Both the position numbers and the translations under genes were made by a program. Below, piece by piece: positions 20,436-21,212 of a stretch of DNA of 64,000 nucleotides (position 1 is its first letter; each line of letters starts with the position of its first letter). This DNA comes from Pseudohaliea rubra DSM 19751 (GTDB lineage Bacteria; Pseudomonadota; Gammaproteobacteria; Pseudomonadales; Halieaceae): the NCBI RefSeq assembly GCF_000764025.1, contig NZ_KN234764.1, positions 16,226 through 80,225 on the forward strand. Reading direction: 5' to 3'. The notes beneath the pieces are model-generated. The model was not told where the DNA came from and ran no database searches. It saw only the letters and a list, made by a program, of their open reading frames with translations.

Positions 20436-21212
20436 TTGAAGCGCCTGAACACGACCCCTTCCCTGCCCCACCTTCTGCTCGCCCTGCTGCTGGCCCTCGG
20501 CGCTGTCAACGCCCACGCCATGCAGATTTTTGTCAAGACCCTCACCGGCAAGACCATCGCGCTGGACGTCGAGCCCAGTGACACCATCGAGAACGTCAAG
20601 CAGAAGATCCAGGACAAGGAAGGCATTCCCCCGGATCAGCAGCGCCTGATTTTCGCCGGCAAGCAGCTCGAGGATGGCAAGACGCTCAGCGACTACAACA
20701 TCCAGAAGGAAGCCACGCTGCACCTCGTCCTGCGCACGCGGCGGACCTTTACCGGCCAACTGCCCGGCGGCAAAGACGGCACCATCAGCTTCACCACCGA
20801 GGACGCGGGCTGCACCTTTCAGGAAGCCCCGGTGTTCTCCGCAGCGGCCGACCCGCCGGAGGGCATCCCCTTCCCCTACGGCGTGGTCGCCTTCACGGCA
20901 GCGAACTGCACCGCCGGCGCCGCCATCACCGTCACCCTCGACGTCGGTGAGCCCCTGCCTGCCGGGGCGACGGCGTGGAAAACCGACCCCTGGGCCCGCA
21001 TCGGAGGCGTCACCGTGAGCGGCAGCACGATCCGCTACACCGTGACCGACGGCGGGCCGCTGGATGCCGATGGCAGCGCCAACGGCAGCATCGTGGACCC
21101 GGTGGGTATTGGCCTCGGCGGCGTGAACGTCCCCGCCCTGCCCGCTATCGGGCTCGCCCTGCTGGCCGGCCTGCTGACCCTGCTGGGCCTGCGGAGCGCA
21201 AAGACCGCCTAA
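20436..21212 (+). CDS. exported ubiquitin-domain surface protein
   Basis: A 258-residue protein. Residues 1-28 form a signal peptide (basic start, leucine-rich core, AHA cleavage site). Residues 29-104 match human ubiquitin at 68 of 76 positions. All seven lysines and the Leu8/Ile44/Val70 patch are kept. The conjugating tail LRLRGG is replaced by LRTRRT, so ordinary ubiquitylation is not expected. The next ~120 residues resemble the choice-of-anchor U domain ([25 protein letters not shown]). The tail [20 protein letters not shown] with a basic end resembles IPTL-CTERM. The TTG at 20436 is the only usual start after the in-frame TAG at 20373 that keeps the signal peptide. ATG 20520 would give a cytoplasmic form. 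Function is unknown. Display of a ubiquitin mimic at the cell surface is inference. Confidence 0.9.

Follow-up and report, generated by a model that had tools for sequence, protein, structure and literature searches.

The window analysed here, a stretch of 64,000 nucleotides from Pseudohaliea rubra DSM 19751, encodes a protein with a ubiquitin domain close to that of eukaryotes. Where does this domain come from, how long has the bacterium kept it, and what could a ubiquitin do there? The initial annotation had called the domain near-eukaryotic, and this holds. It is identical to primate ubiquitin at 68 of 76 positions, and at 67 of the first 72, the reference being a repeat of chimpanzee ubiquitin C (P0110) whose residues 1-74 are letter-identical to the PDB ubiquitin. 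The eight substitutions given earlier (T14A, E16D, A28Q, R54K, S65A, L73T, G75R, G76T) are all correct, and Lys 6, 11, 27, 29, 33, 48 and 63 as well as Leu8, Ile44, His68 and Val70 are present in the sequence of the window's copy. The match to the PF00240 profile (108.8 bits, E 1.2e-31) excludes a chance resemblance. Among the matches listed, the closest eukaryote-type repeat belongs to a metagenome polyubiquitin (P0026, 70 of 72 residues); these repeats come from the 120 proteins listed of 7,944 search matches, with polyubiquitins dominating. Judged by these identities, the eukaryotic origin of the domain is clear. A tree had also been proposed. Run with a quick method on 148 rows and 72 columns, with no row for BfUbb, the secreted ubiquitin of Bacteroides fragilis, it has 3 starred branches among 145 inner ones and neither shows nor excludes a single origin.

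The end of the domain is different. Gly75-Gly76, the C-terminus of a conjugating modifier, is replaced by Arg75-Thr76 in the window's ubiquitin, and Gly75 and Gly76 occur in none of the 22 Halieaceae family members. Because this pair is missing, the ubiquitin is not conjugatable.

The domain is part of a longer protein (Table 1). In one frame with the rest, the segment of residues 1-28 ends in VNAHA and ubiquitin starts exactly at residue 29. The ubiquitin part lacks cysteine, and fused behind it are 154 further residues (105-258), which comprise a choice-of-anchor U domain and a hydrophobic sorting-type tail. Signal-like segments were recognized here and below by a heuristic of our own, a hydrophobic 11-mer with a small residue at -1 (and a wide rule at -3), used without a shuffle control. 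The AlphaFold2 model built from a 23-sequence alignment (mean pLDDT 87.1, pTM 0.61) shows helices at 10-24 and 237-257 and, between them, the strands of ubiquitin and a beta-sandwich that extends to residue 227. The top Foldseek matches shown were ubiquitin chains, with 90% identity over 74 columns and an rmsd of 0.5 for 3dvg_X.

Table 1. Features of the ubiquitin gene and its surroundings, in positions of the window.
Feature	Position	Strand	Basis
Whole gene, 258 aa, TTG start	20436..21212	+	Open reading frame; most homologues of similar length start near the same place
Residues 1-28, signal-peptide-like, with AHA immediately preceding Met1	20436..20519	+	Sequence, own heuristic, model helix 10-24
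Ubiquitin domain, residues 29-104, tail RTRRT replacing RLRGG	20520..20747	+	PF00240 108.8 bits; model vs 3dvg_X rmsd 0.5
Choice-of-anchor U domain, residues 141-226, inside beta-sandwich 101-227	20856..21113	+	NF041766 92.7 bits, AlphaFold strands
VPALP, hydrophobic helix and basic end; putative sorting tail of IPTL type and candidate substrate of exosortase H	21129..21209	+	Weak midcut_by_XrtH match, family TIGR04174, helix 237-257
tRNA-Asn(gtt), left neighbour of the ubiquitin gene	20265..20340	+	ARAGORN; same neighbour in L105-L107
Terminator-like hairpin between tRNA and ubiquitin gene	20358..20379	+	Terminator scan
uvrB, syntenic marker	18007..20031	-	Pfam, synteny
Coiled-coil protein, right neighbour of the ubiquitin gene	21273..21833	+	Pfam, synteny; adjoins the tRNA directly in G027

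The anchor domain matches NF041766 (choice-of-anchor U) far above its cut-off (92.7 bits vs 32), and this profile matches all 23 members of alignment A1 at E<=0.01. For the tail of the window protein the only match is weak (midcut_by_XrtH, 14.3 bits vs a cut-off of 45); within the family, TIGR04174 (IPTL_CTERM) matches 16 of the 23 members and PF18203 matches 12, also at E<=0.01. An exosortase H is encoded elsewhere in the same genome (228.6 bits, cut-off 86), and all four carriers seen with the window's architecture (G000, G004, G065 and G068) have one over the cut-off. From the anchor domain, the sorting-type tail and exosortase H, we predict that the ubiquitin is likely displayed on the surface. 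Across the family there is no co-occurrence of the ubiquitin gene with exosortase H, which is over the cut-off in 7 of the 12 genomes with the gene and in 65 of the 128 without it. Thus, other routes may exist. Elsewhere in the window's genome, L111 (G000:C23) is a second choice-of-anchor U protein with a VPTTS-type hydrophobic tail at its end. The exosortase H gene (L086, G000:C1, 163 aa) is followed by a 218-aa membrane-protein-like frame with an overlapping start.

The surroundings of the gene indicate how long it has been there. In the window the order is uvrB (minus strand), tRNA-Asn, ubiquitin gene and coiled-coil gene. The order is identical in G065, which has a second, diverged ubiquitin gene elsewhere (L097). 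G004 has uvrB, tRNA-Asn and the ubiquitin gene, with no coiled-coil match within the 9.4 kb looked at, and in G068 the tRNA, ubiquitin gene and coiled-coil gene are together, with uvrB about 2.7 kb away. Hence tRNA-Asn and the ubiquitin gene stand next to or near uvrB in these four genomes (G000, G004, G065 and G068), which represent three genera. The ubiquitin gene is absent from this place in G027 (a congener of G065), where the coiled-coil gene directly follows the tRNA, and in G002, where uvrB and the tRNA are present; G001, from the window's genus, has no ubiquitin match and no clear uvrB match. GC3 is 0.882 in the ubiquitin part and 0.880 in uvrB, and the total GC of the ubiquitin part is lower than that of the window (0.596 vs 0.652). 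Between the four copies dS is 0.5-2.1. The dN/dS ratio of ubiquitin is 0.03-0.16 (six pairs, four genomes), against 0.08-0.29 in the anchor and 0.21-0.57 in the tail (the five of six pairs with estimable dS); in three of the six pairs, those without the window's copy, the ratio of ubiquitin is no lower than that of the anchor.

A chimeric join in the assembly, which the initial annotation had pointed to as a danger, was not found: synteny in other genomes, GC3 and dN/dS speak for an old residence, and the presence of the same locus in other genomes rules out a chimeric assembly of the window gene. Recent contamination or chimeric assembly is accordingly an explanation that we regard as extremely improbable. 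It would fit a near-human sequence in a fragmented draft genome of 86 contigs, and some of the 80 loci described below do look like contaminants (L032, perhaps L039), but the architecture and the locus recur in G004, G065 and G068, GC3 is host-like and the four copies are separated by the dS values given above. In addition, ten genomes of named isolates hold one open copy each, their carrying the gene being given by construction since they were reached via ubiquitin loci.

Among the genes examined around it, nothing resembles a conjugation pathway. The ten neighbours lying between 12975 and 27839 either lack Pfam domains or have ones of other kinds, with no E1, E2 or JAB genes among them, and are unrelated to Bil or Bub conjugation operons. 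A search for E2 in the window's own genome was empty, and the controls of that search were silent as well. PADLOC assigned the window protein to no anti-phage family. With a terminator-like hairpin between the tRNA and the ubiquitin gene, the gene may need its own promoter; this hairpin is the one terminator-like site found against a shuffle mean of 0.8, which is not above chance. The promoter scan found none between the tRNA and the ubiquitin gene, its sole promoter-like site (20206-20234) lying before the tRNA. Components of a 'proteobacterial dedicated sortase system' also lie in the window, at 12349-18032. Its target protein (TIGR03788, 694 bits) and response regulator (TIGR03787, 383 bits) are over their cut-offs, a TIGR03785-like histidine kinase is below its own, and a sortase-like ORF at 12349-12978 is recognized by reading only. 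Since the kinase adjoins uvrB also in genomes without the ubiquitin gene, this system is not linked to it.

The ubiquitin gene has a patchy distribution: of 140 genomes from the window's family 12 have a match, which in G096 amounts to 19 residues at the end of a contig, and so do 2 of 369 genomes in an even sample of the class that includes the window's own. Its association with the anchor can be judged from a query limited to residues 104-258, chosen to keep ubiquitin from determining the matches. This query gave 24 matches, 23 of them with PF00240, own copy included. They bear the names Pseudohaliea, Haliea and Chromatocurvus halotolerans and, more distantly, Paracidovorax valerianellae; for some anchor-search matches the source name is already 'ubiquitin family protein'. 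One Halieaceae copy (L093) has two stop codons within ubiquitin, a case of gene decay in one lineage. As to mobile elements, none of 50,697 phage records matches the domain. In IMG/VR, ten loci encode a relative; a signal-like segment precedes ubiquitin in five of them (L113, L116 and L118-L120) and the remaining five, judged by eye, resemble eukaryotic or eukaryotic-virus sequences. The contigs of L118-L120, listed as viral, encode a signal-like segment, ubiquitin and a PTMSEW-type tail, a minimal anchored ubiquitin that is perhaps on a mobile element. Some part of the protein matches 14 plasmid records, only one of which has a near ubiquitin, at 83%, in Ruminococcus albus 7; it is the ubiquitin family protein at 388207-388437 of NC_014824.1, a 420 kb plasmid.

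By sequence similarity, the window's ubiquitin is not unique among bacteria. A ubiquitin-domain scan of genome_contigs (84,980 species, one genome each) gave 396 relatives, of which the best 80 were kept. These best 80 of the 396 loci hold 84 ubiquitin frames. By our heuristic, a signal-like segment stands directly before Met1 in 67 of the 84 frames and in 66 of the 80 loci, a set that is biased by the ranking on ubiquitin similarity. Residue -1 in those 67 frames is Ala in 60, Gly in 5 and Cys in 2. According to record titles, the 66 loci belong to Pseudomonadota (24), Bacillota (19), Verrucomicrobiota (10), Actinomycetota (3), Bacteroidota (3), Cyanobacteriota (2), Methanobacteriota (2) and Chlorobiota (1), with two lacking a phylum. 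Some bins may be mis-assigned: the C-terminal parts of the 'cyanobacterium' L010 and the Methylophilaceae L013 are 94% identical, and in L039 ('Prochlorococcus') the cover by ORFs is 0.24, low among the signal-bearing loci (16 of the 80 loci were looked at). Carriers not titled as MAGs include Loktanella, Rhodobacter amnigenus, Dyella, Rhodoferax lacus, Methylolobus aquaticus, Cohnella, Conexibacter, Ruminococcus albus 8 and Paracidovorax valerianellae.

What follows ubiquitin varies. In the 67 frames we find an autotransporter barrel (17), GLUG (4), IPTL (4), dockerin (3), SLH (2), SdrD-type (2) and a type IX tail (1). Some loci consist only of signal, ubiquitin and a VP[AT]LP-type tail (L043, L060, L091, L094, L095 and L097, with L094 starting with Ile in place of Met1 and L095 and L097 diverged), or of signal and ubiquitin alone (L022, L037 and L077). 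The first of the latter, from Dyella sp. OK004, and the IMG/VR contig L113 encode just a signal-like segment and a full-length ubiquitin of 76 residues with LRLRGG at its end, which would be a secreted ubiquitin with an intact conjugation tail. In three loci of rumen or gut Clostridia (L055, L058 and L081), dockerin-type repeats, recognized there by reading, come behind ubiquitin, which may therefore sit on a cellulosome. Five loci in bins titled actinobacterial (L026, L076, L024, L064 and L079) have ubiquitin near the N terminus with no signal segment and at least about 120 residues after it; L026 and L076 each contain adjacent duplicate genes. L032 is a polyubiquitin in a 'Nitrospinota' bin, and since cover by ORFs of at least 100 aa is 0.23 there, it is probably eukaryotic contamination.

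Is the domain under selection, and on which residues? In several pairs of loci the first 70 residues of ubiquitin are nearly identical and the C-terminal parts have diverged: identity is 99% vs 32% for L010 and L021 (dS 1.7), 99% vs 56% for L061 and L078 (dS 0.9) and 96% vs 42% for L033 and L036 (dS beyond estimate). Such pairs point to a long residence under purifying selection and not to recent copying. There are counter-examples, namely L034 and L053 (91% in ubiquitin, 94% in the C-terminal part) and the copies without signal in L026 and L076 (66-89% in ubiquitin, 49-66% after it). Because these loci were chosen by ubiquitin similarity, changes were recounted on two families chosen by their anchors and on trees built from the anchors only. 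The families are 22 Halieaceae proteins (H22) and 26 of 27 Methylotenera-type autotransporters (A26), from which P0171, with a degenerate ubiquitin changed at 2, 4, 64 and 66, was dropped. The anchor-only search behind the latter, whose query L036 itself came from the ubiquitin scan, gave PF00240 in 27 of 28 matches, the 28th being a 285-residue piece on a 934-base contig.

In both families the core changes least. Using residue lists that we take to represent the core and the Ile44 face, the mean changes per site in H22 and A26 are 0.73 and 0.73 for the core, 2.46 and 2.57 for 46 other surface sites, 4.00 and 3.33 for the nine-residue Ile44 face, and 5.50 and 10.83 for the tail (71-76). The difference between Ile44 face and other surface is not significant (P 0.09 in H22, 0.23 in A26). 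Changes per site agree between the two families (rho 0.59, p 6e-8). Compared with eukaryotic variation, the Halieaceae pattern shows no agreement (rho 0.05, p 0.71) and the autotransporter pattern a weak one (rho 0.30, p 0.012). Ten sites are unchanged in both families (Q2, F4, I13, K29, Q41, L43, L50, Y59, T66 and L69), and at least four changes in both are found at T14, E16, S20, T22, E24, A28, I44, Q49, S57, V70, L71, R72, L73 and G76. The side around F4 and Met1 (2, 4, 63, 64 and 66) is conserved at 1.00 in H22 and 0.96 in A26, with permutation P of 0.0006 and 0.055, this residue set having been chosen post hoc from the Halieaceae data and the second P obtained with P0171 left out. The patch 8/44/68/70 is conserved at 0.65 and 0.81. 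To judge by these patterns, the bacterial ubiquitins examined here seem not to be bound by the rules that hold for conjugating ubiquitin.

The initial annotation had inferred selection to keep the binding surface, and the data do not support this. Leu8, Ile44, His68 and Val70 are among the less conserved parts in the 22 Halieaceae, though 44 and 70 are mostly hydrophobic. A kept Ile44 patch found no support, the class contrasts pointing the opposite way without being significant. At position 44, 21 of 22 Halieaceae have Ile or Val, and 25 of 27 autotransporters have one of Ile, Leu, Val and Phe; at position 70, every one of the 22 Halieaceae has Val, Leu, Ile or Phe. That both residues are mostly hydrophobic would fit a kept binding patch.

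The beta-grasp proteins of the Bub/Bil and ThiS/MoaD kinds have only the fold in common with ubiquitin and are far from it in sequence. The window's ubiquitin is like eukaryotic ubiquitin (PF00240) in sequence and fold, and unlike it in being predicted to be exported, in being fused, in missing the terminal GG and in its pattern of tolerated changes. With the IPTL-CTERM/exosortase H surface proteins (NF041766) it shares the anchor U domain and an exosortase H in the genome, and its tail is a candidate IPTL-like one; the difference is that ubiquitin is the cargo here, and the sole cargo in some Halieaceae relatives. Among the matches listed, no anchored bacterial ubiquitin appeared in the titles and abstract starts of the open-licence PMC literature. 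From papers, the only exported bacterial ubiquitin known to us is that of B. fragilis, and to our knowledge the breadth of anchored and exported bacterial ubiquitins has not been described before.

BfUbb is reported to be a free, secreted 76-aa protein with 63% identity to human ubiquitin, a signal sequence removed directly in front of Met1, a C-terminal Cys and no GG at its end (PMC3352274, PMC5705921). It is reported to inhibit 13 of 40 B. fragilis strains, with bovine ubiquitin having no activity (PMC5705921), and also to have inhibited in vitro ubiquitination (PMC3352274). Later work, as cited in PMC12396204, linked sensitivity to Tyr119 of a peptidyl-prolyl isomerase. The window protein resembles BfUbb, as there described, in its eukaryote-like ubiquitin, in a (predicted) signal segment ending before Met1 and in having no terminal GG. 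In contrast to the free BfUbb, its ubiquitin is 89% identical to human, has no Cys and is fused to an anchor. From these sequence features, we read it as a tethered relative of the BfUbb kind. The signal-peptide ubiquitin of Globodera rostochiensis, as summarized in PMC5705921, is likewise secreted and used outside the own cell; it differs in being an animal gene with a cleavable C-terminal extension and in being unanchored.

Tentatively, we propose that the window's ubiquitin is a displayed ligand for a protein of another cell, tethered and not a conjugated tag. A contact-acting ligand is preferred because BfUbb, exported, cut before Met1 and lacking GG, inhibits strains. As its target, we lean cautiously towards an envelope or surface protein of a microbe over the eukaryotic ubiquitin system. 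Signal peptidase would free Met1, exosortase H would trim the IPTL/VPALP-type tail, and ubiquitin would stand outermost on the outside of a Haliea-type bacterium. Docking would take place via the little changed Q2/F4/T66/K63 side instead of the Ile44 patch and would interfere with, or hold, a neighbouring microbe on contact, as a tethered form of the BfUbb strategy. Several points count against a ligand: the tail of the window protein is below the curated cut-offs, Met1 is not universal (20 of 22 Halieaceae; Ile in L094), and a tethered domain has no obvious reach to a target inside the envelope of another cell.

Alternatively, the ubiquitin could be a mimic or decoy aimed at eukaryotes, whose partners would be deubiquitinases or ubiquitin-binding proteins in hosts or in protists that graze on the bacterium. 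A near-eukaryotic sequence is kept in many lineages, several carriers come from rumen and water samples according to record titles, and the Ile44 face is 94% identical to human in the 67 signal-ubiquitin frames. However, those frames were selected by ubiquitin similarity, the two anchor-chosen sets show no better conservation of the Ile44 patch than of other surface, and GG is absent from all 22 Halieaceae; we think this rather unlikely. Still less probable in our view is that ubiquitin serves as a protease-resistant N-terminal cap or rigid spacer, kept only as a very stable fold with a buried Met1. Its position at the extreme N terminus right behind the predicted cut in most frames, the many unrelated anchors behind it, the least changed core and the relaxed tail and Ile44 patch are what such a cap would lead one to expect. 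This reading is weakened by the several lineages that have nothing to cap, with signal, ubiquitin and tail only or signal and ubiquitin alone, and F4, Q2 and T66, which we take to be exposed in ubiquitin, never change in H22 and A26. Returning to the displayed ligand, a wider reading is possible, and we offer it with reserve: several phyla of prokaryotes may carry an extracellular, non-conjugating, eukaryote-derived ubiquitin with a free Met1, released or on many anchors (autotransporter, exosortase, dockerin, S-layer and type IX tail), whose constrained face would have shifted from Ile44 to F4/Met1/K63 and would recognise a class of partners.

The findings from this study mean that a BfUbb-like design now comes with many anchors, under purifying selection, in named isolates and metagenome bins. 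The role of ubiquitin outside the bacterial cell thus becomes directly testable in environmental strains. Nature has in effect also run an experiment here, with ubiquitin evolving in the absence of the conjugation machinery, and this may tell which of its invariant residues serve only that machinery.
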